The notes beneath the pieces are model-generated. The model made no database searches. It saw only the letters and a list, made by a program, of their open reading frames with translations, and was not told the origin of the DNA. This document shows positions 30,166 through 57,805 of a stretch of DNA of 64,000 bases, piece after piece. Location: the NCBI RefSeq assembly GCF_009734185.1, contig NZ_CP046393.1, positions 62,001-126,000 of the forward strand, written 5' to 3'. Made by a program: the position numbers and the translations under genes. Origin of the DNA: Commensalibacter melissae (GTDB lineage: Bacteria; Pseudomonadota; Alphaproteobacteria; Acetobacterales; Acetobacteraceae). Numbering within the stretch: the first letter of the stretch is position 1; each line of letters begins with the position of its first letter.

Positions 30166-31437
30166 TTAAAAAGGTTTATCAACACCGGGTTGTTTGAGGC
30201 GGATAAAATAGGTCATGATTGCCGCGCAATAATATAAGAAACCAAAAATGATGAAGACGCTAAAATGTCCCAATCCTGTAAAAAGAATGAGAGAAACCAA
30301 AGCAGGTCCGCCAAAATTGCTTAGACCACCACCAAGATTTTGAATGGATACGGCTGCCCCTTTATGTTCAGGTGTCAACATTGGAAAAATGGCTCCCATT
30401 GGAACAAAGGCTGTAATGGTCAGGGCAAAAAACAGGATTCCGCATATGCTAGCCCATATATTTCCGGGAAACCAGACCGGAATAAAATAAAGCAGGATGG
30501 TTGCCGTTCCACATCCTATAAATCCCGCCCATCGCATTTGCTTTAACCAACCGATACGATCGCCGATAATGCCCCATAGAACATTGGTAAAAGGTTGGAT
30601 AGGATATATACTAAGGCTGATAATTTTCCATTGTTCATCCGTAAAATGTCCACCATGTTCAGACGTGTAGAAAATAGGCATTACGACCGCAAGAATACCA
30701 AAAAGGGAAAAGTTACAGATCGCACGGGTTATGAGTGCAATTGCCAGATCACGATTATAAAAAACGAGTGAGAGATCTTGGATAATACCTTTAAATTTGT
30801 GTTCGAATGAATGAATCTGATGATTTTTCTTTTCTATAACGGGCGCCTTGAGAAGGAAAAAGGCGATTGCACCACCTGCAGTTGCCCAGCCTATGGATTG
30901 CCATAAAGTGTTGATCTCGCCAAAGTAACGGACAGAATAAATCGGTAACAAATTTCCGAGAATGCCAAACCCTATGGTGAACATGGACCAGATCCACCCC
31001 ACCGCCGAGGCAAGCTGGCTATCAGGGGTTTCTTTTACAACCCAATAGAAAAATGCATAAAAGAATAAGGGATAAGCAAAACCGCGTAGACCATAGAATA
31101 GCAACATCATGTAATAGTTATGAGGTATAACTCCGAAAAGCATAAAGGCTGCGTGAAAAACAATCCATGTAATGGCACCAACCATCATGATTTTTTTTGC
31201 ACCAAATGTTTCAGCTAGAACGCCAGAAAGCCAGCTTGAAATTGCAGCGGTTAACCCATAAGCAGCAAAAATAAGGCTGACTTTTTTTTCTGCGAATCCC
31301 AGTGTAACAATGTATTTGGAAAGGAAATTCAGTTCAAGACCGTCGCCAATCATGAAAAGGGCAATGGCAATATACCCCCAAAACAGAGAGACTGGCATTC
31401 CCATCATCATACGTGATTTTGTTTGGATATTATTCAT
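30166..31437 (-). CDS. Polyol permease, RbtT/DalT/CsbX family (MFS), copy 1
   Basis: A 423-residue MFS transporter with twelve predicted helices. It matches the RbtT/DalT/CsbX group of pentitol permeases: DGLELNFLSKYIVTLGF in the first loop, AISSWLSGVLAETFG with the motif-A-like AETFGAKK, and LRGFAYPLFFYAFFYW. A second, clearly paralogous copy lies at 36227-37504. It lies downstream of the xylitol/sorbitol-type dehydrogenase on the same strand, but a strong terminator stands between them, so it may have its own promoter or depend on read-through. Likely substrates are pentitols or tetritols. The exact sugar alcohol cannot be read from sequence. Confidence 0.85.
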   Translation of the reverse strand: MNNIQTKSRMMMGMPVSLFWGYIAIALFMIGDGLELNFLSKYIVTLGFAEKKVSLIFAAYGLTAAISSWLSGVLAETFGAKKIMMVGAITWIVFHAAFMLFGVIPHNYYMMLLFYGLRGFAYPLFFYAFFYWVVKETPDSQLASAVGWIWSMFTIGFGILGNLLPIYSVRYFGEINTLWQSIGWATAGGAIAFFLLKAPVIEKKNHQIHSFEHKFKGIIQDLSLVFYNRDLAIALITRAICNFSLFGILAVVMPIFYTSEHGGHFTDEQWKIISLSIYPIQPFTNVLWGIIGDRIGWLKQMRWAGFIGCGTATILLYFIPVWFPGNIWASICGILFFALTITAFVPMGAIFPMLTPEHKGAAVSIQNLGGGLSNFGGPALVSLILFTGLGHFSVFIIFGFLYYCAAIMTYFIRLKQPGVDKPF

Positions 31438-31463
31438 AAGTAATCTTTGAGCATGATAAGTTT

Positions 31464-31499
31464 ATAAAAAAAGCCCGAATTGAATTGATTTCGGGCTTT
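31464..31499 (-). terminator. Rho-independent terminator downstream of the xylitol-type dehydrogenase
   Basis: Perfect 10-bp arms AAAGCCCGAA and TTCGGGCTTT around a 10-base loop. Read on the minus strand the stem is followed by a T run (31463-31472 side), which makes it a classical terminator directed at the dehydrogenase gene upstream of it. Confidence 0.85.
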
Positions 31500-31525
31500 G
31501 TATCGGAATAAAATTCAGAAGAATC

Positions 31526-32569
31526 TTATTCGGGCATTTCAATTTGCAATTTTACATCAGTAGGTTGTGCTGATGCGGCCCGTTCAAAAGCCTCGATACT
31601 TTTTGAGAATGGATAAACTCCAGAAATTAATGGCTTGATATCAATCTTTCCAGAAGCAATCAGATTAATGGTCCGGTCATAAACATGTGCATATCGAAAG
31701 ATTGTTTCCATATGTATTTCCTTTGCTTGTGCAGTAACAAGATCAAAGGGGATTTTGTCAACGGGCATCCCTACAAATACTATGGTTCCACCAGGGCGGA
31801 CACAGGCCAATACGGTGTCATAAGCGGAGGGATGTCCTGAAGCCTCAAAAACGACATCTGCCCCCCAGTCTTTACCGCATTCCGCCTTGACTCTTTCCTC
31901 GACGGATTCATTTTTCAAATTAATTGGGATAATGCCATGATATTGTTTGGCAATATCCAGTTTGGGTTGAGCAAGATCAGAGATGAAAACCTTGCTTGCG
32001 CCAGAGGCAAGTGCGGCAAGTGCGGTCAGAATGCCAATTGGACCACATCCTGTCACTAAACAGATATCGCCAGGTTTTAATCGGGCTTTTACGGCAGCCT
32101 GAACGCCAATGGCAAGAGGTTCAACAAAGGCACCTTCCTCGAAAGATACGTTGTCGGGCAGTTTAAATGTAAAAGCAGCGGGATGTACCACTGTTTCCGT
32201 TAAGCATCCATGAACGGGTGGGGTTGCCCAGAACACGACGTCAGGATCAACATTGTAAATACCGAGTTTTGTTGCGCGTGAGTGTGGATTGGGTATGCCG
32301 GGCTCCATACATACACGATCCCCAACCTTTAAATTTTCAACATTTTTGCCTGTCTCAATAACAATACCAGAAGCCTCGTGCCCGAGCACCATTGGTTGAT
32401 TTACGATAAAAGGGCCAATTTTTCCATGTGTGTAGTAATGTACATCACTTCCACAAATACCAACATTACGTATTTTTATTTTAACGTCATTATCCCCTAC
32501 TGTAGAGGGTAAATCAATGTTACGGATACTTAATTTGCCTTTTTCTTCAAGTACAAGAGCTTGAGCCAT
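31526..32569 (-). CDS. Zinc-dependent polyol dehydrogenase, xylitol/sorbitol type
   Basis: About 347 residues in the medium-chain dehydrogenase superfamily, resembling NAD-linked xylitol (D-xylulose-forming) and sorbitol dehydrogenases. Catalytic zinc ligands are Cys39 ([10 protein letters not shown]), His64 and Glu65 (GHEASG). The Rossmann motif is GCGPIG and [11 protein letters not shown] is typical of the polyol group. The lobe that normally holds a structural zinc with four cysteines reads [17 protein letters not shown] here and has none, as in some xylitol dehydrogenases. I chose ATG 32569 because AGGAAC lies about 6 bases upstream; the frame extends 13 codons further. Gene is divergent from the Gfo/Idh gene. 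Confidence 0.88.
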
Positions 32570-32637
32570 GAAATGTTCCTTACTGGAATAAACATATAAA
32601 ATACACAATTATGTTACCAATATTCCGTAAGTATGAA

Positions 32638-32657
32638 AAATAACAAATGTGTTATTT
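32638..32657. promoter_or_regulatory. Dyad in the divergent region of the polyol island (possible operator)
   Basis: AAATAACA and TGTTATTT form perfect 8-bp arms around a 4-base centre, 68 bases upstream of the minus-strand dehydrogenase start. A second imperfect dyad, TAGTT...AACTA, lies at 32759-32773. Symmetry of this size suits a dimeric repressor, but no regulator gene is in the island, so this is a guess. Confidence 0.3.
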
Positions 32658-32858
32658 CAAAGTAATTTCATTCTATTTATAAAAGATTGAAATAGCAATT
32701 TTTAATAAAAAAATATTTGTTCGTAATTATAAATAGTTTTATTGTTATTACAGTTCAGTAGTTTATATAACTATTACATTTAATTGGATAATGACAGAAA
32801 TATTTTATTTAATTTTTTGTCATTTTGTTTAAATAAAAAAATCCAAGAAAAGAGTTCG

Positions 32859-33914
32859 ATGATGATTAAACAAATATCAGGTAACAAAACGTTAAAGATT
32901 GGAATCATTGGTACTGGAGCTATTGGTCAGGATCATATCAAACGATGTGCGAACTTTTTATCAGGGGTCGAGGTTGTTGCTGTCAGTGACATTGATAAAA
33001 AATCTGCACAGAATGCCATTTCCACATATGGATTGGATGCTAAAGCATATGAATCAGGGAACGATTTGATTCAAGCGAAAGAGGTGGATGCAATTATCAT
33101 TGCCTCTTCAGGTAAAACCCATGCGGAATATATATTGTCTGGCATTGAGGCAAAAAAATTCATTTTTTGTGAAAAGCCGCTGGCAACGACAATCGAGGAA
33201 TGTCAAGCGATCATTGAGGCTGAGCAAACATATGGAAAACGTTTAGTTCAGGTTGGATTTATGCGCTCTTATGATCGGCGATATCAAGAACTGAAAAAAA
33301 TCATTCAAGATAAAAAATTAGGCCAGATCCTGATGATACATGCGGCACATAGGAATCAGGAGTCTCCAGAGAATTTTACATCTGAAATGGTTATAACGGA
33401 TACCTTAATTCATGAGCTGGATATATTTCGTTGGTTGTTGAACGATGAATTTGTTACCGTAAGTATGATTCCAATCCGTAAAACATCAAAAGCGCCAAAA
33501 GGCTTGCAGGATCCTCAGTTTGCACTTTTGGAAACCCAATCAGGAATCAGAATTAATGTGGAATTATTTGTAAACTGTCAATATGGTTACGATATCAAAT
33601 GTGAAATTGTGGGTGAAGAAGGTGTGGCCAGCTTACCCGCTCCTGCTGCTGTTTCAATATGCCAGCATGAAAAACGGTATGATCAAATTTTGGCAAATTG
33701 GCAGGATTGGTTTTTGGAAGCCTATAATATTGAAATACAGGAATTCATTAATGAATGTCTGGTTGGAAAATTACAAGGTCCGGACGCATGGCGGGGATAT
33801 ATGGCGACTTATGTGGCCGAATTCTGTATTGAATCTCAAAAAAAAGGTCAGGAAATTGCAATACCCGTCTTGAAATGTCCCGATTTTTATAGGTCTGATA
33901 ATAAAATTGAGTAA
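32859..33914 (+). CDS. Gfo/Idh/MocA family oxidoreductase (inositol 2-dehydrogenase-like)
   Basis: About 351 residues. The N-terminal Rossmann fold has IGIIGTGAIGQDH (about residues 12-24), then EKPLATTIEEC with the conserved Lys and the substrate-site Asp/His of TDTLIHELDIFRW. This layout is closest to inositol 2-dehydrogenases (IolG), which oxidise myo- or other inositols. No other inositol-pathway gene is present, so a different cyclic or linear polyol or sugar is possible. ATG 32859 is preferred over an in-frame TTG 25 codons upstream, since an AAGAG site precedes it. The DUF1971 gene follows at about 70 bases and is probably in the same transcript. Confidence 0.83.
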   Translation: MMIKQISGNKTLKIGIIGTGAIGQDHIKRCANFLSGVEVVAVSDIDKKSAQNAISTYGLDAKAYESGNDLIQAKEVDAIIIASSGKTHAEYILSGIEAKKFIFCEKPLATTIEECQAIIEAEQTYGKRLVQVGFMRSYDRRYQELKKIIQDKKLGQILMIHAAHRNQESPENFTSEMVITDTLIHELDIFRWLLNDEFVTVSMIPIRKTSKAPKGLQDPQFALLETQSGIRINVELFVNCQYGYDIKCEIVGEEGVASLPAPAAVSICQHEKRYDQILANWQDWFLEAYNIEIQEFINECLVGKLQGPDAWRGYMATYVAEFCIESQKKGQEIAIPVLKCPDFYRSDNKIE

Positions 33915-33986
33915 ATTTATAAAAAATTGGAATATATTTTAAGTATAGAATCTAAATCATGATTATTTTTAACAGATAATGAGAAA

Positions 33987-34310
33987 ATGATGAATGCTGT
34001 AAAACAGAATTATGGGGATGGTAAATTGGTTTGCTATAAAACTTTGCCAATATGGAATGTAAAAACTTTACCAAAATCTTTCAAGGAATGCCATAATACA
34101 AAAGAGGGTGTCTGGGCAAAATTAAAGATATTATCAGGATCTTTGGTAATGGAATTTTTGAATGATAAAAAAGAAATTGAGAAAGAAACTGAATATTCAG
34201 TTGTGCATCAACCTGAAATGATAAAGCCACGCCAATATCATAAAATCGCTTCCTGCAGTGAGGATATGACCTGTCAGTTATCTTTTTATACAGTTTCGTC
34301 AAATGATTGA
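33987..34310 (+). CDS. DUF1971 (YeaR/TehB-like cupin) protein
   Basis: A 107-residue protein matching DUF1971, the small beta-rich fold found alone in YeaR and fused to the TehB tellurite methyltransferase. Marks are YKTLPIWNVKTLP, HNTKEGVWAKLKILSGSL, the PRQYHKI segment and the final CQLSFY. Role unknown; YeaR of E. coli is induced by nitrate/nitric oxide and TehB by tellurite, so a stress role is possible. Its place after the Gfo/Idh gene within the polyol island is unexplained. Start may be the ATG at 33987 or 33990. Confidence 0.8.
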   Translation: MMNAVKQNYGDGKLVCYKTLPIWNVKTLPKSFKECHNTKEGVWAKLKILSGSLVMEFLNDKKEIEKETEYSVVHQPEMIKPRQYHKIASCSEDMTCQLSFYTVSSND

Positions 34311-34325
34311 TACGGGTATCTCCTG

Positions 34326-34367
34326 TTCCATAGACTATTAATCGATACCAATTAATAGTCTATGGAA
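34326..34367. terminator. Perfect 17-bp hairpin between convergent DUF1971 and RpiB-type genes
   Basis: Arms TTCCATAGACTATTAAT and ATTAATAGTCTATGGAA are exact complements around an 8-base loop. It nearly fills the 67-base convergent gap. No T tract follows on either strand, so it could stop transcription from both sides only weakly, or act in RNA stabilisation. Confidence 0.55.
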
Positions 34368-34377
34368 TTATGTAGGA

Positions 34378-34836
34378 TTACTCGGAAATTGCTTTATCTT
34401 CGTAATACGCAATTCTTTTTACCTTAGGCTCTGATCTACCTTTTTCATATTCAGAATCAAGCCAGGCCTGAAGAATTGTTTTTGCCAGTTCTTCACCGAT
34501 AACACGGGCACCTAATGTGATGATTTGTGCATTATTGCTTTTTCTGGCCCGTTCGGCGGAATAGGTATCATGGCATTGAGCCGCACGAATGCCGGGTATC
34601 TTATTTGCAACAATTGCCATTCCTATTCCAGTGCCACAAATCAAAATCCCTCTTTCATGTTTGCCGGACTTGATTGCCTGTCCTACAGACCAGGCAATAT
34701 CCGGATACAGATTTGAATCGCGATTGGAATCGCTACTGTAGTCTGTCACTTCAATATTGTTGGATTGAAGCCAGTCTACGATTTTATTTTTTAAGTCAAC
34801 AGCAGCATCATCGCAGCCGATAGCAATAGAAGGCAT
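34378..34836 (-). CDS. RpiB/LacA/LacB family sugar-phosphate isomerase (possible erythrulose-4-phosphate isomerase)
   Basis: A 152-residue member of the RpiB family. It starts IAIGCDDAAVDLK where ribose-5-phosphate isomerase B has GxDHAG, and carries the active-site ICGTGIGMAIVANK with Cys and the HDTYSAERARKSNNAQI segment. Since the window also has rpiA, a plain ribose role is less needed. RpiB relatives include DerI and EryI, which convert D-erythrulose 4-phosphate to D-erythrose 4-phosphate; in a locus with EltD-like and DhaKL-like enzymes this is the best reading. AAGGA is 8 bases before the ATG. Divergent from the eltD-like operon. Substrate is inferred from context only. Confidence 0.75.
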   Translation of the reverse strand: MPSIAIGCDDAAVDLKNKIVDWLQSNNIEVTDYSSDSNRDSNLYPDIAWSVGQAIKSGKHERGILICGTGIGMAIVANKIPGIRAAQCHDTYSAERARKSNNAQIITLGARVIGEELAKTILQAWLDSEYEKGRSEPKVKRIAYYEDKAISE

Positions 34837-34873
34837 TTTTATATTCCTTAAAATTTCTCAAAATATTTCATTG

Positions 34874-34944
34874 TATTGGTGTATTAAAAATATTTTTAAA
34901 GATTCCCATTTATAGTATGTATTTTATAAAGTTTTTCACCAATA
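34874..34944. promoter_or_regulatory. Possible operator region between divergent rpiB-type and eltD-type genes
   Basis: The 200-base divergent spacer has an inverted repeat of TATTGGTG (34874-34881) and CACCAATA (34937-34944), with a 16-bp perfect palindrome TTAAAAATATTTTTAA (34884-34899) between the arms. The symmetry could serve coordinated control of both transcription units. AT-rich palindromes also arise by chance in this genome. Confidence 0.3.
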
Positions 34945-35046
34945 AATATACAAGTAATTTAGATTAAAAGATCACAAGAAGTTTATTTGTTTTTGAATAT
35001 ATTCTGGCTGATCATCATAGTAAACATTACAGATGAGCAGAGAAAA

Positions 35047-36162
35047 ATGATGGAAAAAAACGGTAAACCTTCTATTACAAAAATAGATAATATTCCCAAG
35101 ACAATGAAAGCAATTGTTGCTTATGCGCCACATGATTACCGTTTGGAAGAGGTTCCTGTACCACAAATTGGGTCTGAAGAAATTCTTGTTAAAGTAGAGG
35201 CGTGTGGAATTTGCGCTGGGGATACCAAAGCATTTGATGGGGCACCAAGTTTTTGGGGGGATGAAAAGCAACCTGCCTATATTAAGGCTCCCATGATACC
35301 CGGTCATGAATTTATTGGGCATGTTGTTGCCTATGGCGATAAAATCAAAGATTTCAAACTGAATGACCGTATTATTTCCGAACAAATTGTTCCTTGTTGG
35401 GAATGCCGTTTCTGTAAACGTGGTGAATACTGGATGTGTGAAAAACACGATCTTTACGGTTTTCAAAACAACGTTAATGGCGGCATGGCAGAATATATAA
35501 AATTGCCTAAAGAAGCGATTAACTATCATTTGCCAGATGATCTTCCCATGAAACAGGCTGTTCTGGTTGAACCATATGCCTGTTCATTACATGCCGTGCA
35601 ACGTGCAAGTGTTAAGTTGGGAGATTTTGTGGTGCTATCTGGTGCTGGCACTCTGGGTTTAGGTATGATTGGCGCATTGAAAAAATCCGGCCCCGACAAA
35701 CTGGTTGTTCTTGATTTGAATGATGATCGTTTAGCACTGGCTAAGAAATTCGGTGCTGATATCGTGATGAATCCAGCCCGTGAAGATGTCGTCAAGAAAA
35801 TCAAGGATATGACCGAAGGATATGGTTGCGATATTTATATTGAAGCTACGGGTGCAGGCAAATCAGTAGAGCAGGGTCTGTCAATGATTCGCAAACTTGG
35901 TCGTTTTGTTGAATTTTCTGTATTCAAAGATCCGGTATCGGTTGACTGGAGTATCATTAGTGATCGTAAGGAGTTGGATGTCTTGGGATCACATTTGGGT
36001 CCTTATTGCTATCCCATGGTGATCAAGGGAATACAAAATGGTGATTTTCCAACGGAAGGCGTTGTAACGCATGTTTTCCCGCTAAAAGATTTTAAAGAAG
36101 CTTTTGGCATAATGAAAAAAGGAGTGGGTTCTTTAAAGGTCGTACTCGATCCAAATTTATAA
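35047..36162 (+). CDS. Zinc-dependent alcohol dehydrogenase, EltD (erythritol/L-threitol)-like
   Basis: About 371 residues, a zinc MDR dehydrogenase. The catalytic Cys and the GHE motif are present (CGICAGDTK and PGHEFIG). The structural zinc lobe is intact as CWECRFCKRGEYWMC. Motifs DGAPSFWGDE, SEQIVPCWEC and SVDWSIISDRKELDVLGSHLG closely follow the mycobacterial erythritol/L-threitol dehydrogenase EltD as I recall it, so oxidation of a tetritol to erythrulose is the likely reaction. Other polyols are possible. ATG 35047 is taken as start; the frame runs 20 codons further to a TTG. First gene of an operon with a permease, an SDR and DhaK/DhaL. Confidence 0.8.
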   Translation: MMEKNGKPSITKIDNIPKTMKAIVAYAPHDYRLEEVPVPQIGSEEILVKVEACGICAGDTKAFDGAPSFWGDEKQPAYIKAPMIPGHEFIGHVVAYGDKIKDFKLNDRIISEQIVPCWECRFCKRGEYWMCEKHDLYGFQNNVNGGMAEYIKLPKEAINYHLPDDLPMKQAVLVEPYACSLHAVQRASVKLGDFVVLSGAGTLGLGMIGALKKSGPDKLVVLDLNDDRLALAKKFGADIVMNPAREDVVKKIKDMTEGYGCDIYIEATGAGKSVEQGLSMIRKLGRFVEFSVFKDPVSVDWSIISDRKELDVLGSHLGPYCYPMVIKGIQNGDFPTEGVVTHVFPLKDFKEAFGIMKKGVGSLKVVLDPNL

Positions 36163-36226
36163 TTTATTGAATTTTAGCCATCTAATTATTTGAAAGTAAT
36201 TTATTTACTAAGAGGGAGACCTGCAC

Positions 36227-37504
36227 GTGAACAAAGTCATAGAGAGACTTTTCATTTCTCCAAAATTGATGTTGGGTTATTTTGGAGTATTAATTTTCAT
36301 GGCTGGTGAAGGGCTGGAACAGAACTGGTTGTCTCCCTTTTTACAACAGCATGGTCTAACTGCACATCAGGCTTCTACCATTTTCACGGTTTATGGATTG
36401 ATGGTTGCCATTTCATCATGGCTTTCAGGTGTTTTGGCAGAGATTTTCGGGGTTCGGAAAGTGATGACCATTGGACTTGTCCTTTTTTTTGTAGGGTCAT
36501 TTCTTTTTTTGGTTTTTGGTATTCCAACTTATAATTTTAGCGTTATATTGCCTACCTATGCAGTGCGGGGACTTGCTTATCCTCTGTTCGCTTATGGTTT
36601 TCTAGTTTCAGTTGCATATGAGGCTCCCCGTGAACGGTTGGGAGGTGCTGTCGGTATGTTCTGGCTTGTTTATGCAGGTGGGATTTCCGTTCTGGGAACT
36701 GGCTATTCAAATATTATGCTTTATTATTTCCATATGGAAAACCTTCATTTATTGTGGACAGCATTGATTTTTGTTGCTGTAGGTGCTGTTATTGCATTGA
36801 GTCTAAGTGGGAAAAAATCTGCCCAAAATAATTATCCAGAAGATGATGAAACTCATTCATTAAAACATTTGTTAAAAGGTTTAACGATTGTTTATGAAAA
36901 ACCAAAAGTGGGGATTGGTGGTCTTGTCCGAATGATTAATACAAGTGCTGCATACGGTTTTTCAGTTTTTATGCCAACTTTTTTATTCGGTATGGGATAT
37001 GCTGAAAATGCGTGGCTTGAAGTTGCCGTGTATTTATGGATGGGTAATGTTGTATTCAATCTTATCTTTGGGGCCGCAAGTGACAAATTGGGGTGGCGTA
37101 ACGTTGTTATGTGGTTTGGCTGTATAGGCTGTGCATTGAGCGTTATGGCATATACCTATTGCATTTCTATTCATGCGGATCTTTTTACCATAAAAATATG
37201 CGCCGCTGTATATGGTGCATTACTTGCAGCATTTGTCCCTTTATCAGCCATTATGCCAAATCTTGCCCCTGAAAATAAGGGTGCGGCCATGTCAATTCTT
37301 AATTTTGGTGCAGGAATGAGTTACTTTTTTGGTTATGCAATTGTCATGCTTTTTCAAGGGATCATTGGTAATTTCGGGGTGATGTATATTTATATCGGGC
37401 TCTATTTTGTTGCTGCAGCATTAATGATTTTTGTCAAGGTTCAACAATATAAAAATGAAACAATTGATCGAGAAGTTGGTGTGGCAATAGAAGAAACATT
37501 ATAG
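36227..37504 (+). CDS. Polyol permease, RbtT/DalT/CsbX family (MFS), copy 2
   Basis: A 425-residue MFS permease paralogous to the copy at 30166-31437: the shared features include GEGLEQNWLSPFL (against GDGLELNFLSKYI), AISSWLSGVLAEIFG and VRGLAYPLFAYGF. Starts with GTG at 36227, supported by GGGAGA 8 bases before it. It is the second gene of the eltD-like operon, so it should bring in the tetritol or pentitol used by those enzymes. Twelve helices are expected. The SDR gene starts 18 bases after the stop, behind a strong AAGGAGAG site. Confidence 0.85.
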   Translation: MNKVIERLFISPKLMLGYFGVLIFMAGEGLEQNWLSPFLQQHGLTAHQASTIFTVYGLMVAISSWLSGVLAEIFGVRKVMTIGLVLFFVGSFLFLVFGIPTYNFSVILPTYAVRGLAYPLFAYGFLVSVAYEAPRERLGGAVGMFWLVYAGGISVLGTGYSNIMLYYFHMENLHLLWTALIFVAVGAVIALSLSGKKSAQNNYPEDDETHSLKHLLKGLTIVYEKPKVGIGGLVRMINTSAAYGFSVFMPTFLFGMGYAENAWLEVAVYLWMGNVVFNLIFGAASDKLGWRNVVMWFGCIGCALSVMAYTYCISIHADLFTIKICAAVYGALLAAFVPLSAIMPNLAPENKGAAMSILNFGAGMSYFFGYAIVMLFQGIIGNFGVMYIYIGLYFVAAALMIFVKVQQYKNETIDREVGVAIEETL

Positions 37505-37522
37505 CCTATTAAGGAGAGATTT

Positions 37523-38278
37523 ATGTCAACAAATCAAATGTTTGATTTATCAGGTAAAACTGCACTTGTTACCGGGGGGGCTGCCGGTATTGGAAACGAG
37601 ATTGTGCGGACTTTTTTACAAAAAGGTGTAAAGGTAGCGTTGTTGGACCGGCTTGATACCATTGATCAAGTCGCAAAAAATCTAGGTCCAGATAATGCTA
37701 TTGGTATCCAGGTTGACGTAACGAATAAAAAACAGGTTGATCAGGCAGTAAAAAAAGTTGTTGATCATTTTGGTCGTATAGATATTGCTGTAAATTGTGC
37801 GGGTGTTGCTTTGCTTGATGCAGCTGAAACGCTCAGTGAGGAAATGTGGAATGCGACTATTAATATCAATTTAACTGGTACCTATTGGGTTGCCCAGGCA
37901 GTGGGAAACGTGATGTTAAAACAAAAGAGTGGATCCATTATTAATATGGCTTCACAGGCGGGGGTTATTGCCTTGCAAAAACATGCTGCTTATTGTGCCA
38001 GCAAGGCAGGTGTTATTGGATTGACACATGTACTGGCATTGGAATGGGGACCTCATGGGGTCAATGTTAATGCGATTTCTCCAACCGTTGTTTTGACGGA
38101 ACTTGGGAAAAAAGCATGGGCAGGTAAAGTTGGTGAGGATATGAAGGCGCAAATTCCCATGCGCCGTTTTGCTGAACCCGAACAGATTGCCGCTGCAGCT
38201 GTTTATCTTGCCAGCTCTGAAGCATCTATTGTGAATGGTGCTAATTTAGTCATTGATGGTGGATTTACCATTCAATAA
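37523..38278 (+). CDS. SDR dehydrogenase, D-threitol dehydrogenase (DthD)-like
   Basis: A 251-residue classical SDR: VTGGAAGIGNEI (cofactor loop), NCAGV, Ser in NMASQAG, and YCASKAG. An acidic Asp ends the second strand (ALLDRLD), which favours NAD. The C-terminal SPTVVLTELGKKAWAG and MRRFAEPEQIAAAAVYLAS segments resemble D-threitol dehydrogenase of Mycobacterium and related polyol SDRs as I recall them. In this operon it probably oxidises a second tetritol stereoisomer, or a pentitol, to the same ketose. AAGGAGAG precedes the ATG. Annotated substrate is an inference from motif similarity and context. Confidence 0.78.
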   Translation: MSTNQMFDLSGKTALVTGGAAGIGNEIVRTFLQKGVKVALLDRLDTIDQVAKNLGPDNAIGIQVDVTNKKQVDQAVKKVVDHFGRIDIAVNCAGVALLDAAETLSEEMWNATININLTGTYWVAQAVGNVMLKQKSGSIINMASQAGVIALQKHAAYCASKAGVIGLTHVLALEWGPHGVNVNAISPTVVLTELGKKAWAGKVGEDMKAQIPMRRFAEPEQIAAAAVYLASSEASIVNGANLVIDGGFTIQ

Positions 38279-38307
38279 AAAGAAATAAAAAATAATGAGA
38301 ATAAATA

Positions 38308-39312
38308 ATGACAATGAACAGAATTATTAATGATCCAGATTTAGTCGTTGAAGATGCAATCGAGGGATATGTCGTCGCCCATCCAGAATTTTTTGAAAAA
38401 ACGGATAATTCTAGAGTTCTAAAATATTCAGGTTCAGAAAAAAAAGGTAAAGTTGGCATTATTACAGGTGGCGGTTCCGGTCATGAACCAGCCTTTCTGG
38501 GATATGTGGGTAAAAATATGGTTGATGCGGTTGCAATTGGGGAAATTTTTTCTTCTCCCACTGCTGGTGCATTTTTGGATGCAATGAAAGCCGCAGATTC
38601 AGGTGCTGGTGTTGCTTGTTTATACGGCAATTATGCTGGCGATAATATGAATGTCAAGATGGCAATAAAGAAGGCCACAGCCGCTGGTATTACAGTCAAA
38701 ACAGTTGTTGCCAATGATGATGTCGCTTCCGCACCGGCCAGTGAAAAAGAGAAACGCCGCGGTGTTGCGGGTGAAATCCTTATGTGGAAAATTGGTGGGG
38801 CTGCCGCTGCCGAAGGATATGATCTTGATGGTGTTATTGCCGCTGCCCAAAAAGCAATAAATAACTGTCGTTCAATTGGGGTTGGCTTGAGTTCTTGTAC
38901 TATTCCTGCAGTTGGAAAACCAAATTTCCATATTGAAAAAGGAACAATGGAATTGGGTATTGGCCATCATGGTGAACCTGGAATCAAGGTTGTTCCTATA
39001 GAAACGGCAAAAGAGATGGCGGAAACCATGCTTCATCCAATCATGGAGGAAGGTCTTTTTGAACCCGGATCTGAAGTGGTCGTGCTGGTTTCCGGCCTTG
39101 GAGCAACACCTGTTATGGAGCTTTATATCTATTATGCAGAGGTTGAACGTCTTTTGAAGGCTAAAAATGTCAAGATCCATCGCTGTTATGTAGGAAATTA
39201 TTTTACTTCTCTTGAAATGATGGGTGTGACGCTTTCCGTTATGAAATTAGATGCGGAATTAAAAAAACTGATTGATATTCCTGCACGTTCTTTGGGTTTG
39301 GTACAGGAGTAA
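38308..39312 (+). CDS. DhaK-type ketose kinase subunit (possible erythrulose kinase)
   Basis: A 334-residue DhaK domain protein. It shows GGGSGHEPAFLGYVG with the substrate-contacting His, CLYGNYAGDNMN, VANDDVASAP and the GIGHHGEPG segment with the His that binds the ketose covalently as a hemiaminal. DhaK subunits bind dihydroxyacetone or tetruloses such as erythrulose and receive phosphate from DhaL. The next gene encodes DhaL 5 bases later. In Mycobacterium the D-erythrulose kinase DerK joins these domains in one chain; here they are separate. Context suggests erythrulose to erythrulose 4-phosphate, but dihydroxyacetone phosphorylation is equally within the family's range. Confidence 0.85.
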   Translation: MTMNRIINDPDLVVEDAIEGYVVAHPEFFEKTDNSRVLKYSGSEKKGKVGIITGGGSGHEPAFLGYVGKNMVDAVAIGEIFSSPTAGAFLDAMKAADSGAGVACLYGNYAGDNMNVKMAIKKATAAGITVKTVVANDDVASAPASEKEKRRGVAGEILMWKIGGAAAAEGYDLDGVIAAAQKAINNCRSIGVGLSSCTIPAVGKPNFHIEKGTMELGIGHHGEPGIKVVPIETAKEMAETMLHPIMEEGLFEPGSEVVVLVSGLGATPVMELYIYYAEVERLLKAKNVKIHRCYVGNYFTSLEMMGVTLSVMKLDAELKKLIDIPARSLGLVQE

Positions 39313-39317
39313 ATGGC

Positions 39318-39962
39318 ATGACAGAAGTGGCTAAAATTGAAAATGGCACCGAGATTGTTGATGATCTAATCAGCTGTATCGTGAATAACCGTGATTATTT
39401 AAGTGAGATTGACGGTGCGATCGGTGATGGTGATCATGGGATCAACATGGCAAAGGGATTTAACATTTGCAAACATCGTATTGATGGGAAAAATCTTTCA
39501 TTGTCAGAAGCCTTTGAAATATTAAGTGATTCCCTGATGGAGGGGATTGGTGGTTCAATGGGGCCTTTATATGGCAGTATTTTTGCTGGATGGGCTGAGG
39601 CAATTCAAGGTAAAAGTACCTTGAATTCAAATGAATTCAAGGAAATGCTTTCAAAAGGGTTGCATGAATTACAGGAAATTAGTTCTGCCAAACAGGGTGA
39701 TAAATGTTTGGTTGATACTTTGATGCCTGCAATTGAAGGATTCAAAAAAGCGAATGAATCCGGAAAAACATTTCATGAAGCTTTGATTATTATGAAACAG
39801 GCAGCACATGATGGTAAGGAATCCACCCGCAATCTTGTTGCCAAAATAGGTCGTGCCAGTCGTTTGGGTGAACGTTCAAAAGGCATTTTAGATGCTGGTG
39901 CAACTTCTTGCTGTTTGCTGTTAACGCAACTTGCGGACAGTATTTCGAAAAGAATTCCCTAA
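39318..39962 (+). CDS. DhaL-type nucleotide-binding kinase subunit
   Basis: A 214-residue all-alpha DhaL domain. The metal/nucleotide-binding aspartates lie in DGAIGDGDHGINMAKGF (about residues 33-49), followed by GGSMGPLYG and, near the end, GRASRLGERSKGILDAGATS. It gives phosphate to the ketose held by DhaK. No PTS-type DhaM is found beside it, so direct use of ATP is the simpler reading; the PTS-dependent form would need a DhaM elsewhere. Ribosome site AGGAG is 8 bases upstream. Last gene of the operon, with a hairpin following at 39987-40020. Confidence 0.85.
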   Translation: MTEVAKIENGTEIVDDLISCIVNNRDYLSEIDGAIGDGDHGINMAKGFNICKHRIDGKNLSLSEAFEILSDSLMEGIGGSMGPLYGSIFAGWAEAIQGKSTLNSNEFKEMLSKGLHELQEISSAKQGDKCLVDTLMPAIEGFKKANESGKTFHEALIIMKQAAHDGKESTRNLVAKIGRASRLGERSKGILDAGATSCCLLLTQLADSISKRIP

Positions 39963-39986
39963 ATTTTTAAAAAATAAAATACAAAT

Positions 39987-40020
39987 TATATACATTATCG
40001 ATTTATCGATAATGTATATA
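39987..40020. terminator. 16-bp perfect hairpin ending the eltD-dhaL operon
   Basis: Arms TATATACATTATCGAT and ATCGATAATGTATATA flank a 2-base loop, with T-rich sequence on both outer sides (ACCTTTTATT after it, and the minus-strand reading of AAAAAATAAAAT before it). It is likely a bidirectional terminator for dhaL (+) and the porin gene (-). Confidence 0.7.
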
Positions 40021-40028
40021 ACCTTTTA

Positions 40029-41585
40029 TTAAAAGTTGACCGTAGATCTCAATCCAAAAATGGCGGCATTTGGAATTTTCTTTTTACTATTTTCCTCAAG
40101 ATTTAATCCTCCACCGGAACGGAAGACATATTGAAAATCAGGTTTTAACTCTAGCCATGATGTGGCCTGTATTTGCCAGGCGAGCTCGATATGATGTTCT
40201 GTTTTTCGAATACACCAGTATGGATCCGCAAAATTGCGGTAATCACGGTCATAATGTCTGGCACGATTGCCAGTATGGGCAAATCCCCAGCCAAAACCCA
40301 GGGAATCATGTTCCCGATTGAGAAGTCCCTTATAGACAATCCCTGCATCTCCTGCATAATTGATGGGGCTACGGTCAGTTGGGCTGACTTGCATTCTTCC
40401 AAATATGCCAAGAGATTCTTTTTTGTTTCCCGGATTTCTCCATATCATTTGATCCATAATTCCATAAACTGACCAGGTATGGCGATGGTTGAGCATTGTT
40501 TGGGGGTTGTCCGGATTTCCTAATGGATTCCCATCCCTGTTATAACGTTGATCCGGGAATTTTGAACTATCAAAATAGGCTCCCAACCGATAAGTTCCAG
40601 GATAAGCGGTATATTTTTCATCATCTTCATTGCCAGGATTCAGATGATATTGAATTTCATTGGTTATGAATACCCCGGTGGTAAAATTGAAATGTGTTCC
40701 TGATTGATGCTTGGAATATGGATCACAGGTAAATGGTCCGGATGGATTGCAAAAAGAAACATTGTTGGGATTACTGTCCGCAACTGCAAAAAGGTCCGTC
40801 CAGTGATCATTGGGTTGGAAACTGAAACGGATTGCAGGAGAGGCAACGGGATAATCAATTCCTCCACTATAGGTATTGACTGATGGAATCATGGGCCATC
40901 CAAAAGAGGAGTTAATAAATAGCGTTGCATAATCGCTGATGTTAAACTCCTGGTCCAAACTTAATTTCCCGATGCGAACGGTCATTTTATTATCAAAAAA
41001 TCCCTGTTGGTACCATAGCTCCCATAAACGAGTCGAACGATCGCCTTCCCAACCACTGGTAGAGTTATAGGCTCCTATATTTTCTGCCGTAAAAGCCCGT
41101 CCTCGAAGTTGCAGGGCGCTAATGTTAAAAAGACCATTCTTAATTCCTGTCACTTTCTCGGGATCCCAGTTCAAGGTAACTGTGGTCAAACCTGTATAGG
41201 CAGCACCCTGCTTGATGCCCCCATAAGGATTTCCCCATACCTCATTGACATCTACCAGGGTGAGGGTCAGACCATATTGTGCCATAAGGGAACGTAATCC
41301 CAAAATATTTCCCAATAACATATCGTTGTTTTCGGGTGCCTGACCTGTATCCTTATCAAGGATTGTGGCTGGTGGAGGGGATTTTTTTACCGGGGTGGCA
41401 CCGCTAATATTTGTCGATGGAGATGCACCCTGATTAACAATAGGGGAATTTCCAACCGCATGTGCTGAATGTTGATTAATCAGAGCTTGATATACAACAA
41501 AATTAATTAAAACAATTTTGGGTAAATTATTTTTTTTTGATAAAAATAGCTGGGAATAGCGATGAGACATTATAATACACTTCAT
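40029..41585 (-). CDS. Carbohydrate porin, OprB family
   Basis: A 518-residue outer-membrane beta-barrel. A signal sequence precedes the AHAVGN cleavage region (about residues 35-45), followed by a Pro/Ser-rich linker and the barrel, with the OprB-type WELWYQQGF, KLSLDQEF and INSSFGWPMIPS segments and the final aromatic residue (STVNF). OprB porins allow passage of sugars and polyols, so the gene suits the neighbouring polyol permeases. Two cysteines (FCNPSGPFTC) may form a loop disulphide. Start is uncertain between 41585 and an ATG five codons in. Confidence 0.88.
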   Translation of the reverse strand: MKCIIMSHRYSQLFLSKKNNLPKIVLINFVVYQALINQHSAHAVGNSPIVNQGASPSTNISGATPVKKSPPPATILDKDTGQAPENNDMLLGNILGLRSLMAQYGLTLTLVDVNEVWGNPYGGIKQGAAYTGLTTVTLNWDPEKVTGIKNGLFNISALQLRGRAFTAENIGAYNSTSGWEGDRSTRLWELWYQQGFFDNKMTVRIGKLSLDQEFNISDYATLFINSSFGWPMIPSVNTYSGGIDYPVASPAIRFSFQPNDHWTDLFAVADSNPNNVSFCNPSGPFTCDPYSKHQSGTHFNFTTGVFITNEIQYHLNPGNEDDEKYTAYPGTYRLGAYFDSSKFPDQRYNRDGNPLGNPDNPQTMLNHRHTWSVYGIMDQMIWRNPGNKKESLGIFGRMQVSPTDRSPINYAGDAGIVYKGLLNREHDSLGFGWGFAHTGNRARHYDRDYRNFADPYWCIRKTEHHIELAWQIQATSWLELKPDFQYVFRSGGGLNLEENSKKKIPNAAIFGLRSTVNF

Positions 41586-43667: not shown

Positions 43668-45722
43668 ATGAATATGGATAAGGTATGTATTAATACCATT
43701 CGTGGACTTGCAATTGATCAAGTGCAGAAAGCTAACTCTGGTCATCCAGGTACGCCGCTTGACTTGGCACCCGCGACATATGCCTTATGGAATAATATTT
43801 TAAATTATGATCCTGCGAATCCATTGTGGCCGGCCCGAGATCGTTTTGTTTTGTCAGGTGGTCATGCCTGTTCCCTTTTATATGCCATGATTCATTTAAG
43901 CGGTATTAAGGAAGTGACACGTCAAGGTAAAGTGGAAAACAAACCAGCCTTAACCCTTGAAGATTTAAGTCAATTCAGACAGCTCAATTCAAAAACGCCC
44001 GGTCATCCAGAGTATTTGCATACCACCGGAATTGAAACCACAACAGGACCTTTAGCTCAAGGGATTGCAACGTCTGTGGGGATGGCGATTGCCCAGGAAT
44101 GGTTTGCTGCACGTTATAATCGACCAGAATTTCCATTGTTCGATTATCACGTCTATGCCTTTTGCGGTGATGGTGATCTTATGGAGGGGATTTCCTATGA
44201 GGCGGCTTCTCTTGCAGGACATTTGAAGTTAGGTAACCTTATCTGGGTATATGATCGGAACCGTATTACGATCGAGGGCAATATCAATATTGCCTTTACA
44301 GAAAATGTTGAAAAACGTTTTGAAGCTGCAGGATGGAAAATCTATCATGTAAAAGATGGTAACGATATCGATGATTTCCAAAATAAGATTAATCAAGCGC
44401 GTCAAAATAAAGCCGTGCCAAGTTTTATCGTCATTGATAGTGTTATCGGGTATGGGTCTCCTAATAAAGCGGGAAAATCAGTAGCGCATGGTGAACCGCT
44501 CGGGGTGGAAGAAGTTAAAGCGACCAAAAAGAATCTTGGTTTGCCTGAAGACAAAGATTTCTTTGTCCCTGATGGTGTAATGGATCATTTTAAAGCCAAT
44601 ATTGGTAAAAGAGGAGCTGCAGCCTATCAAAAATGGCATACGCTGTTTGCGGATTATAAGGTAAAATATCCCGAGTTGGGTCAAGAGATCGAGGATATTT
44701 TAAATCATCGCCTACCAAAGGGATGGGACAAGGATATTCCAATTTTTGCGCCTGATGCCAAAGGGGTTGCATCGCGGTCCAGCTCAGGAAAGGTATTGAA
44801 TGCCATTGCGAAGAATGTTCCCTGGTTAATCGGTGGGTCTGCTGATCTTGCCCCCTCTAATAAAAGCAATCTGGATTTTGAAGGGGCTGGAGTTTTTCAG
44901 AATCCTGCTTATGGCGGCACATATGATGGACGGAATTTTCATTTTGGTGTTCGTGAACATGCTATGGGGGCAATTGTCAACGGAATGGCCTTAAGCGGTT
45001 TGCGTTCGTATGCCGCAGGATTTTTCATTTTTTCTGACTATATGAAAAATCCCATCCGTTTGTCTGCATTGATGCATTTGCCAGTCATATATATTTTTAC
45101 GCATGATAGTATCGGGGTTGGTGAGGACGGTCCGACACATCAGCCAGTTGAGCAGTTGGTTCACTTCAGGGCAACGCCTAATCTTGTTGTCTTTCGGCCC
45201 GCCGATGCAAACGAGGTTGTCGAGGCATGGAAATATGCGATGCAGGAAAATTCTAAACCAGTCATTCTTGCATTAAGTCGTCAGAATTTGCCAACAATTG
45301 ACCGCCATCAATATGCTTCGGCAGAAGGGCTTAAAAAGGGTGCTTATGTTGTTGCGGATTGTGAAGGTAAGCCAGACTTGATTCTCATGGCGACAGGAAG
45401 CGAGGTTGGTTTGATTATGGAAGCTTATCAGGTTTTAACAAAATCCGGAAAAAAGGTTCGGGTTGTTTCAATGCCCTCATGGGAACTTTTTGAAGAACAG
45501 TCCAAGTCTTATCGTGATCAGGTTTTGCCTCCTAGTATAACAGCACGTGTCGCGGTTGAACAGGGATCTCCCATTGGATGGGATCGTTATGCTGGAACAA
45601 CCGGTGCAATCATCGCTATGCGTGGTTTTGGTGCCTCTGCTCCCTATAGTGATTTACAGAAAAAATTCGGGTTTACTCTTGAAGCTGTTTTACAAGCGGC
45701 ACAGGAACAATTGACAAGGTAA
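43668..45722 (+). CDS. tkt: Transketolase
   Basis: A 684-residue thiamine-diphosphate enzyme transferring two-carbon units between pentose-phosphate sugars. Substrate and cofactor motifs are standard: ANSGHPGTPLDLAP, HACSLLYAM, TTGPLAQGIATSVGMA, the ThDP motif CGDGDLMEG, then FGVREHAMG and HDSIGVGEDGPTHQPVEQL. It handles erythrose 4-phosphate, which links it to the polyol island upstream. A GGAGAG site precedes the ATG (43668; a second ATG is at 43674). It is followed by a strong terminator and then tal-pgi. Confidence 0.97.
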   Translation: MNMDKVCINTIRGLAIDQVQKANSGHPGTPLDLAPATYALWNNILNYDPANPLWPARDRFVLSGGHACSLLYAMIHLSGIKEVTRQGKVENKPALTLEDLSQFRQLNSKTPGHPEYLHTTGIETTTGPLAQGIATSVGMAIAQEWFAARYNRPEFPLFDYHVYAFCGDGDLMEGISYEAASLAGHLKLGNLIWVYDRNRITIEGNINIAFTENVEKRFEAAGWKIYHVKDGNDIDDFQNKINQARQNKAVPSFIVIDSVIGYGSPNKAGKSVAHGEPLGVEEVKATKKNLGLPEDKDFFVPDGVMDHFKANIGKRGAAAYQKWHTLFADYKVKYPELGQEIEDILNHRLPKGWDKDIPIFAPDAKGVASRSSSGKVLNAIAKNVPWLIGGSADLAPSNKSNLDFEGAGVFQNPAYGGTYDGRNFHFGVREHAMGAIVNGMALSGLRSYAAGFFIFSDYMKNPIRLSALMHLPVIYIFTHDSIGVGEDGPTHQPVEQLVHFRATPNLVVFRPADANEVVEAWKYAMQENSKPVILALSRQNLPTIDRHQYASAEGLKKGAYVVADCEGKPDLILMATGSEVGLIMEAYQVLTKSGKKVRVVSMPSWELFEEQSKSYRDQVLPPSITARVAVEQGSPIGWDRYAGTTGAIIAMRGFGASAPYSDLQKKFGFTLEAVLQAAQEQLTR

Positions 45723-45730
45723 ATGTAGTG

Positions 45731-45762
45731 AATCCTTCTTAATTTATTAAGAAGGATTTTTT
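45731..45762 (+). terminator. Rho-independent terminator after tkt
   Basis: Perfect 12-bp arms AATCCTTCTTAA and TTAAGAAGGATT around a TTTA loop, followed by a T run. It is 8 bases past the tkt stop, so tal-pgi is either separately promoted or reached by read-through. Confidence 0.9.
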
Positions 45763-45792
45763 GTCGCAGCATATTTAAGGAAAGAAATAGAA

Positions 45793-57106: not shown

Positions 57107-57805
57107 ATGGATGCACAACAAATCGTTAAATATAAAGAGCAACTTGGAAAAATAGGGGCTTCATTAGTTTCGCAAGGGATGAAAGTTGGATTGGGAAGTG
57201 GGAGTACCGCTGCATGTGTTATCCGATCTTTAGGCAAGCGGTGGCAAGAGGAAGGGTTGCGTTTTGAAGGTGTGCCTTCCTCGATTGCGTCGGCCAAGCT
57301 GGCCGAATCTTACGGAATTGAACTGACAACATTGGGGGAATGTCCAGAATTGGATATTGCCATTGATGGGGCAGATGAGGTTACGCATCAAGGATTACAG
57401 TTAATTAAGGGGTTGGGTGGCGCTTTATTACGAGAAAAAATTGTTCGCTATGCAGCCAAAAAATTTGTTATAGTCGTTGATGAACGTAAATTAGTCGATA
57501 AGCTTGGTGAGCATACACCTGTTCCAGTTGAGGTTACCCCTTTCGGTTGGGAAGCCACAATGAAACATTTGGAAAAAATTGGAGCATCAATAAAAGTTCG
57601 GGTCAAGAATGATCATCCTGATTTTTTCCTGACGGATGGTGGGAACATGATTCTGGATTGTGATTTTGGAATTATTGACGATCCTGTACGGCTAGAGAAA
57701 GATATCATTTCGATTGCTGGGGTTATCGAAAGCGGTTTATTTATTAATTGTACGGATGAGGCTTTAGTCGCAGGCTATAACGGGATTCAGCATTTATATA
57801 AGTAA
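57107..57805 (+). CDS. rpiA: Ribose-5-phosphate isomerase A
   Basis: A 232-residue RpiA. Motifs match the family: VGLGSGSTAACVI near residue 25, LDIAIDGADEV, KGLGGALLREKIV and VIVVDERKLVDKLG with the phosphate and catalytic residues, then GGNMILDCDF. It converts ribose 5-phosphate and ribulose 5-phosphate into each other. Its presence makes a second, RpiB-type ribose isomerase in the window less necessary and supports a different job for the 34378-34836 protein. gntK follows after 13 bases. Confidence 0.95.
   Translation: MDAQQIVKYKEQLGKIGASLVSQGMKVGLGSGSTAACVIRSLGKRWQEEGLRFEGVPSSIASAKLAESYGIELTTLGECPELDIAIDGADEVTHQGLQLIKGLGGALLREKIVRYAAKKFVIVVDERKLVDKLGEHTPVPVEVTPFGWEATMKHLEKIGASIKVRVKNDHPDFFLTDGGNMILDCDFGIIDDPVRLEKDIISIAGVIESGLFINCTDEALVAGYNGIQHLYK

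Follow-up and report, generated by a model that had tools for sequence, protein, structure and literature searches.

Which compound is used by a compact group of genes in Commensalibacter melissae that encodes a zinc dehydrogenase, a polyol permease, a short-chain dehydrogenase/reductase (SDR), a two-gene Dak-type kinase, and an RpiB-family isomerase? The group lies in a stretch of 64,000 nucleotides (positions 62,001 to 126,000 of contig NZ_CP046393.1), referred to here as the window, which has a G+C content of 38.5% and belongs to a genome of 1.96 Mb in a single contig. A sequence-only reading of this DNA had proposed that tetritols are oxidized to erythrulose here, which a kinase of the Dak type and an isomerase of the RpiB type would pass on to the pentose-phosphate pathway, and our analysis supports this proposal. 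We consider it highly likely that the genes form a horizontally shared operon for the use of erythritol and D-threitol via D-erythrulose, D-erythrulose 4-phosphate, and D-erythrose 4-phosphate.

The core cassette and its proposed pathway

The core cassette spans positions 34378 to 39962 and consists of rpiB on the minus strand and, divergent from it, adh-rbtT-sdr-dhaK-dhaL on the plus strand, where consecutive frames are separated by 64, 18, 29, and 5 bases. All genes named here are intact, full-length open frames. The TTG start listed for the alcohol dehydrogenase (ADH) frame is probably wrong, and the tract shared with its homologues begins at an ATG near 35047. The features of the core are as follows, with the evidence given in parentheses.

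34378 to 34836, minus strand: rpiB-family gene, most likely for a D-erythrulose-4-phosphate/D-erythrose-4-phosphate isomerase of the DerI/EryI type (PF02502, residues, tree)
34837 to 35046, no strand assigned: divergent intergenic region, possible operator or promoter (conserved block in the Commensalibacter alignment)
34987 to 36162, plus strand: zinc medium-chain dehydrogenase, EltD-like, likely converting erythritol to D-erythrulose (PF08240/PF00107)
36227 to 37504, plus strand: RbtT/DalT/CsbX-type permease of the major facilitator superfamily (MFS), likely for tetritol uptake (TIGR00897, 464.1 bits; cut-off, 375)
37523 to 38278, plus strand: SDR of the GolD/DthD family, likely converting D-threitol to D-erythrulose (above the cut-off of NF005309, "GolD/DthD family dehydrogenase," with 372.1 versus 286 bits)
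38308 to 39312, plus strand: DhaK, ketose-binding subunit of a putative erythrulose kinase (PF02733)
39318 to 39962, plus strand: DhaL, nucleotide-binding subunit (PF02734)
39983 to 40024, no strand assigned: bidirectional terminator-like hairpin closing the operon (terminator scan)

In the proposed pathway, the RbtT-type permease would import the polyol, the zinc dehydrogenase would convert erythritol and the SDR D-threitol into D-erythrulose, and DhaK together with DhaL would phosphorylate D-erythrulose to D-erythrulose 4-phosphate, probably with ATP. The RpiB paralogue would then form D-erythrose 4-phosphate, which the single transketolase and a transaldolase-phosphoglucose isomerase (PGI) fusion would take into central metabolism. 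The substrates and stereochemistry of these steps, the use of ATP, and expression of the genes are inferred here.

The region between rpiB and adh holds a block, ATCACAAG..nTTTATTTGT, that is conserved in five aligned Commensalibacter sequences and may be a promoter or a candidate operator of a regulator other than the SorC type. A scan for terminators found 7 terminator-like sites in the window, compared with 5.3 in shuffled sequences (standard deviation, 2.3), and a promoter scan found 15 sites, compared with 18.9 in shuffles.

An isomerase without the ring-opening histidine

Ring opening by RpiB has been linked to His102 of the trypanosomatid enzymes, which corresponds to His99 in Escherichia coli; the H99N exchange lowers the kcat of the E. 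coli enzyme 26-fold, and the H102N mutant of the Leishmania enzyme is inactive (PMC4783025; articles are cited by PMC number, each for the portion of its text that was accessible). The RpiB of the window, which is the sole PF02502 match in the genome, does not show this hallmark of ribose 5-phosphate isomerase B. It retains Cys67 and carries Ser100 in place of the ring-opening histidine, Asp10 in place of the second histidine, and Ser and Lys at the places of His134 and Arg137. The same set of four residues is found in the Coccidioides immitis RpiB, in whose structure of 2011 Asp, Ser, Ser, and a lone Lys replace the usual active-site residues; its authors suspected "shorter chain substrates" and noted that RpiA was also present (PMC3212906).

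We then compared these positions across cassette and background sequences. Among 99 cassette RpiBs, which are kin by descent and not independent, Ser occupied the place of His99 in all 99 and that of His134 in 98, Lys was at the place of Arg137 in 98 (one row was gapped), and an acidic residue was at that of His10 in 97. By comparison, a class-wide search gave 28 background RpiBs, which had the usual residue at His99, His134, Arg137, and His10 in 27, 25, 27, and 28 cases, respectively. The count of 99 takes loci with an RpiB match of at least 90 residues; it includes five second copies from genomes already counted (L129, L130, L131, L134, and L136; loci are numbered with L and genomes with G) and leaves out duplicates (L001, L002, L133, L137, L143, and L144) as well as the second RpiB of L062, which also has Ser. 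Only 1 of the 28 background RpiBs (L145) has Ser at the place of His99, and it groups with a cassette-side clade of 37 rows. In a quick tree of this short protein, that clade, which includes the cassette RpiBs and the EryI-type protein of Rhizobium pRL12, stood apart from the 28 background rows with a Shimodaira-Hasegawa-like approximate likelihood ratio test (SH-aLRT) support of 95. The pRL12 RpiB, which belongs to an ery-type locus, shares Ser at both His99 and His134 with the cassette proteins but differs at His10, where it has Ser, and at Arg137, where it has Asn.

Profile scores point in the same direction. The window RpiB scored 178.6 bits with NF051858, the rhizobial DerI equivalog, and 148.5 bits with TIGR01120, and NF051858 exceeded TIGR01120 in all six cassette or tetronate RpiBs scanned, with the reverse in all four background ones. 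For a Pseudomonas RpiB (L020), NF051858 was only narrowly ahead (159.1 versus 153.4), whereas the pRL12 RpiB scored 257.7 against a cut-off of 240. In a class sample of 142 genomes, only the two Commensalibacter genomes exceeded 126 bits with this model (177.8 and 173.4), the next one reached 125.5, and none was above the cut-off.

Tetrose 4-phosphates have no free 4-hydroxyl with which to close a furanose ring, so that a dedicated isomerase needs no ring-opening histidine, and its loss from the window RpiB may be explained in this way. Furthermore, the presence of rpiA in the window leaves RpiB free for another substrate. The protein is most likely a D-erythrulose-4-phosphate/D-erythrose-4-phosphate isomerase of the DerI/EryI type. 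An isomerase acting only on ribose 5-phosphate had been named in advance as an outcome that would refute the tetritol proposal, and Ser100, the tree, and the scores point the other way. A main role in ribose 5-phosphate isomerization was rejected, considering the presence of rpiA and the changed active-site residues.

Ser-type RpiBs were also seen in other gene settings. A Klebsiella plasmid locus (L180:1688-11463) contains PdxA, a four-carbon acid kinase, a Ser-type rpiB, tal, and tkt and probably serves tetronate use ending in erythrose 4-phosphate. In Listeria innocua (L181:4281-11933), the RpiB of the set dhaM2-dhaK2-dhaL2-TIM-rpiB-SDR-fsa-tkt (TIM, triose-phosphate isomerase) is of the Ser type as well, which indicates a tetrose substrate for its kinase, linked to the phosphotransferase system (PTS).

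Dehydrogenases, kinase, and transport

The window ADH reaches 78 to 80% identity with the ADHs of the Klebsiella and Salmonella plasmid cassettes. Since the Klebsiella plasmid cassette has no SDR, the comparison suggests that ADH is the core dehydrogenase. The label "EltD-like" is used because the protein is 55% identical to one Providencia protein annotated as erythritol/L-threitol dehydrogenase in a plasmid record, and no NCBIfam model among the ADH matches names EltD. The gene of that Providencia dehydrogenase adjoins genes of the ATP-binding cassette (ABC) type, and its 19-kb stretch contains no kinase. A membrane polyol dehydrogenase of the pyrroloquinoline quinone (PQQ) type was rejected as the main route, with one weak PQQ-repeat match in a frame of 462 amino acids (aa).

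The kinase belongs to the Dak family, with the Dak1 and Dak2 domains on separate genes. The GHHGEPG stretch of DhaK aligns with HGEPG in E. coli and with HSEPG of solved DhaKs, and its histidine is presumably the covalent link to the substrate; the IGDGDHG stretch of DhaL is conserved in an alignment with a solved structure. The EIIA-man domain of DhaM (PF03610) was not found in the genome by a search that was positive in 5 of 14 controls. This makes phosphoenolpyruvate and DhaM an unlikely source of phosphate, and DhaKL is probably driven by ATP; a DhaM-driven kinase was rejected on these grounds. Likewise, the genome contains a single gene of the TIM family and no second, LerI-type isomerase, so that a use of L-threitol is not expected and a branch via such an isomerase was rejected.

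Distribution and origin of the cassette

To survey relatives we scanned with DhaK only, kept the best 80 loci of at least 577 relatives, with 16 of the 80 ending at a contig edge, and called partner genes by identity thresholds. In these best 80, DhaK had DhaL as a neighbor in 80, RpiB in 75, SDR in 67, and ADH in 61 loci, a recurrence beyond what chance would give. Of the named loci, Commensalibacter papalotli and C. communis have the cassette genes most similar to those of the window. The 16 Enterobacterales loci contained RpiB and SorC in all cases, SDR in 15, ADH and MFS in 14 each, tkt in 9, tal in 8, and ABC genes in 2; tkt or tal was present in 12 of the 16, each time beside rpiB. Their order is rpiB|adh-mfs-sdr-dhaK-dhaL-SorC. 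Hosts include Serratia, Providencia, Erwinia, Pantoea, and Yersinia as well as plasmids of Klebsiella (tkt-tal-rpiB|adh-mfs-dhaK-dhaL-SorC) and Salmonella (tal-rpiB|adh-mfs-sdr-dhaK-dhaL-SorC). The Klebsiella-type ADH was found in 1 of 5,426 complete E. coli genomes, where it is plasmid-borne, and a Bacillota plasmid copy, accompanied by a class II fructose bisphosphatase, is more distant (DhaK, 47% identical). The 51 Pseudomonas-type loci had ABC uptake in 48 to 49 cases, MFS in none, tkt in 3, and tal in 2. The sequence-only reading had seen in the window a build special to an acetic acid bacterium, set apart by its split kinase and MFS uptake; this does not hold, as Enterobacterales and plasmids show the same gene order and both traits are normal for the enterobacterial-type cassette.

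Some loci deviate from this picture. Five Bacillota loci (L040, L065, L074, L077, and L079) have rpiB, dhaK, and dhaL together with a PF01261-type barrel and lack ADH, SDR, and MFS. The SDR of one Providencia alcalifaciens strain is split over two frames (L013:5458-6212), and the rpiB of the Acerihabitans cassette is damaged (L016:8530-9033). The DhaK neighborhood of Sinorhizobium meliloti and a Halomonas plasmid provided no further support.

Within the Acetobacteraceae, 107 of 249 sampled genomes had a DhaK match, ordinary dihydroxyacetone kinases included. Among 25 short loci (at most 4 kb) from other genera of this family, RpiB was beside DhaK in 12 and an ADH of this kind in 11; related sets are thus not rare. 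In trees rooted at midpoints, DhaK, SDR, and MFS of Commensalibacter and of one further family member (G013) grouped with Enterobacterales, apart from the remaining Acetobacteraceae rows in the trees. Supports for this fork were 87/89 for DhaK, an unstarred fork, and 97/91 for SDR, the part of the ADH tree examined agrees (97/92), and the MFS tree was a quick one with long-branch warnings. This grouping makes it likely that the cassette was acquired by horizontal transfer, presumably with Commensalibacter on the receiving side. In the family sample, four of the five other genus members, one of them of the same species, contain the cassette; in the three from other species, the six core proteins are 60 to 86% identical and DhaK is free of stops.

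Alternative explanations

Several observations weigh against a tetritol pathway. Permeases of the RbtT/DalT type are named for C5 polyols. The window RpiB remains below the NF051858 cut-off (178.6 versus 240), passes that of TIGR01120 for ribose 5-phosphate isomerase B (148.5 versus 138.65), and scores highest with the broader PRK05571 subfamily (195.8; cut-off, 135). Ser-type RpiBs also occur in tetronate and other loci and therefore mark tetrose phosphates, not tetritols as such. A SorC-type regulator (PF04198), as present in relatives, had no match in the genome. Finally, phenotypes in Providencia point both ways. In favor of the pathway, about three-quarters of P. rettgeri isolates acidify erythritol, a trait called unique among the Proteeae (PMC5663057), and the cassette was present in both P. 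rettgeri loci fetched. Against it, P. vermicola, P. heimbachae, and a single P. alcalifaciens strain also carry the cassette, although that statement predicts no acid from erythritol for them.

Other functions of the genes were also considered. A pentitol operon, in which ribitol, xylitol, or arabitol would be used and RpiB would act on ribose or ribulose 5-phosphate, would be in line with the RbtT/DalT-type permeases and with the TIGR01120 score, and the surroundings of a Providencia locus (L003) include a dehydrogenase of the mannitol/arabitol type, an FGGY kinase, and a further permease of this kind. Nevertheless, it is very improbable in view of the Dak-type kinase, the absence of the ring-opening histidine, and the presence of rpiA, and a search for an FGGY kinase, which covered ten proteins of the block, found none. 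We also assign a low probability to a branched or acid-derived C4/C5 route, for apiose/apulose or tetronate, that would combine a Dak-type kinase with a Ser-type RpiB. Dak-type apulose kinase is known, Ser-type RpiBs accompany acid-sugar genes in Klebsiella, Pasteurella, and Rhizobium plasmids, and Bacillota loci carry the PF01261 barrel; however, PdxA, four-carbon acid kinase, and the PF01261 barrel are all absent from the ten block proteins scanned, and the block instead encodes a pair of polyol dehydrogenases together with permeases for polyols.

The names DhaK and DhaL might suggest the use of glycerol or dihydroxyacetone, for which we see hardly any chance: dihydroxyacetone phosphate needs neither RpiB nor transaldolase, yet both travel with the cassette, a separate Dak1 match is found elsewhere in the genome in a 561-aa frame, and the EIIA-man domain was not found. 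That the genes were acquired, lost their regulator, and fell out of use would agree with the absence of a SorC-type match. Such decay or silence is very unlikely, however, given that all frames are intact and that the cassette is retained in the genus at the identities given above.

Neighboring genes and genus context

The genes around the core cassette are as follows.

30166 to 31437, minus strand: second polyol permease of the RbtT/DalT/CsbX MFS type (TIGR00897, 462.6 bits), a variable neighbor and not core
31526 to 32608, minus strand: sorbitol/xylitol-type zinc dehydrogenase, the second medium-chain one of the block, a variable neighbor and not core
32784 to 33914, plus strand: inositol-type Gfo/Idh/MocA dehydrogenase, a variable neighbor and not core
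33987 to 34310, plus strand: DUF1971 gene adjoining rpiB, accessory (PF09313)
40029 to 41585, minus strand: OprB carbohydrate porin, convergently oriented and conserved in the genus, at most an accessory gene (PF04966)
43668 to 48633, plus strand: probable housekeeping tkt and tal-pgi, outside the cassette, which would use its product (family matches, congener comparison)
57107 to 57805, plus strand: rpiA, ordinary ribose 5-phosphate isomerase (family match)

The genes and families named by the sequence-only reading are present, as full-length frames and by profile search, although its list omitted one zinc dehydrogenase, the Gfo/Idh/MocA gene, and the DUF1971 gene. Its single 11-kb unit could not be upheld: the permease at 30166 to 31437, the sorbitol-type dehydrogenase, and the inositol-type dehydrogenase differ from one Commensalibacter genome to another, and OprB lies on the far side of the terminator-like hairpin in convergent orientation. 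OprB and the genes at 30166 to 33914 were rejected as core for these reasons. The latter resemble a polyol gene hotspot. The DUF1971 gene adjoins rpiB in every Commensalibacter cassette examined (L006, L007, L133, L137, L139, and L140), and its product is 53 to 63% identical outside the species.

That tkt and tal belong to the system was not supported either. The genome has one clear transketolase match (434 bits) and a weak one (18.3 bits) in a distant 683-aa frame. The fifth congener (G173) has no DhaK match, and the corresponding part of its genome contains hisC, an ankyrin gene, tkt, and tal/pgi but lacks the cassette. Taken together, these data indicate that tkt and tal-pgi are probably housekeeping genes adjacent to the cassette, and they were rejected as island members. 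In the window, tal-pgi is one fused frame (45793-48633), whereas in G173 (L138:16602-19501) the tal frame stops after 375 aa and is followed by a separate pgi-like match.

Phenotypes and significance

Growth on m-erythritol is a biotype test in Serratia marcescens, and a Serratia genome survey was unable to address it for want of an assigned pathway (PMC9440931). The cassette is present in four Serratia loci (L009, L011, L012, and L014) and is a candidate for these unassigned genes; in a Serratia transcriptome, the D-threitol dehydrogenase gene dthD was among the upregulated genes (PMC8764370). For Commensalibacter, no phenotypes in print were found among the matches listed in the open-licence literature. 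Gut microbes have been stated to lack erythritol pathways (PMC10190533), and the copies that Klebsiella, E. coli, and Salmonella carry on plasmids would, if functional, qualify this statement.

With a confidence slightly above even, we propose that RpiBs without the ring-opening histidine are a tetrose-4-phosphate isomerase subfamily of bacteria and fungi that marks C4 sugar pathways and, at the same time, that the MFS-type cassette is the missing basis of the m-erythritol tests of S. marcescens and P. rettgeri, mobile on plasmids and transferred to insect-gut acetic acid bacteria. An old diagnostic trait would thereby gain a defined set of genes, the unusual active site of the C. immitis RpiB (PMC3212906) would find a chemical explanation, and annotation could use the residue signature to separate tetrose-phosphate from ribose-phosphate isomerases. 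Four points appear to be new: the cassette of the MFS type with tal/tkt as neighbors, its spread on plasmids, its occurrence in Commensalibacter, and the link between the residue signature and tetrose loci. The matches listed in the open-licence literature included no paper on the Enterobacterales/plasmid operon.

Comparison with known systems

The mycobacterial tetritol system has a fused kinase and ABC uptake, and the Mycobacterium smegmatis pathway was reportedly described by Huang et al. in 2015. Its EltD/DthD/DerK/DerI route (as cited in PMC10733421) resembles the one proposed here in leading from a dehydrogenase via erythrulose, a kinase, and a DerI isomerase to erythrose 4-phosphate, with a GolD/DthD-family SDR also present in the window. 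The window differs in its two-gene kinase, in MFS instead of ABC uptake, and in the absence of a second TIM-family isomerase of the LerI type.

For bacteria without eryA/eryB, Barbier et al. (2014) have been credited with drawing attention to a dihydroxyacetone kinase plus isomerases (PMC5992420). The ery pathway of Brucella and Rhizobium shares the type of the final isomerase (EryI/RpiB) and the product, but starts with the FGGY kinase EryA and needs EryB, EryC, and EryH (PMC5992420), none of which was among the ten block proteins scanned, with one TIM gene in the genome. The Rhizobium pRL12 locus comprises an FGGY kinase, a G3P-type dehydrogenase, a TIM barrel, SorC, DeoR, TIM, and RpiB. In Yarrowia lipolytica, a dehydrogenase (EYD1), a dihydroxyacetone-kinase-like erythrulose kinase (EYK1), and an RpiB-type isomerase are likewise clustered; this is a eukaryote, however, its cluster also includes a TIM-type isomerase, and a different order of steps has been hypothesized (PMC5992420).

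Among bacterial relatives, the Pseudomonas-type cassettes share RpiB, SDR, ADH, DhaK, and DhaL but also have SorC and rely on ABC uptake in place of MFS. The Enterobacterales and plasmid cassettes agree with the window in gene order when they are of the MFS form, and their DhaK and ADH are each 73 to 80% identical to those of the window. They differ in their SorC regulator and in the frequent presence of tal and/or tkt.

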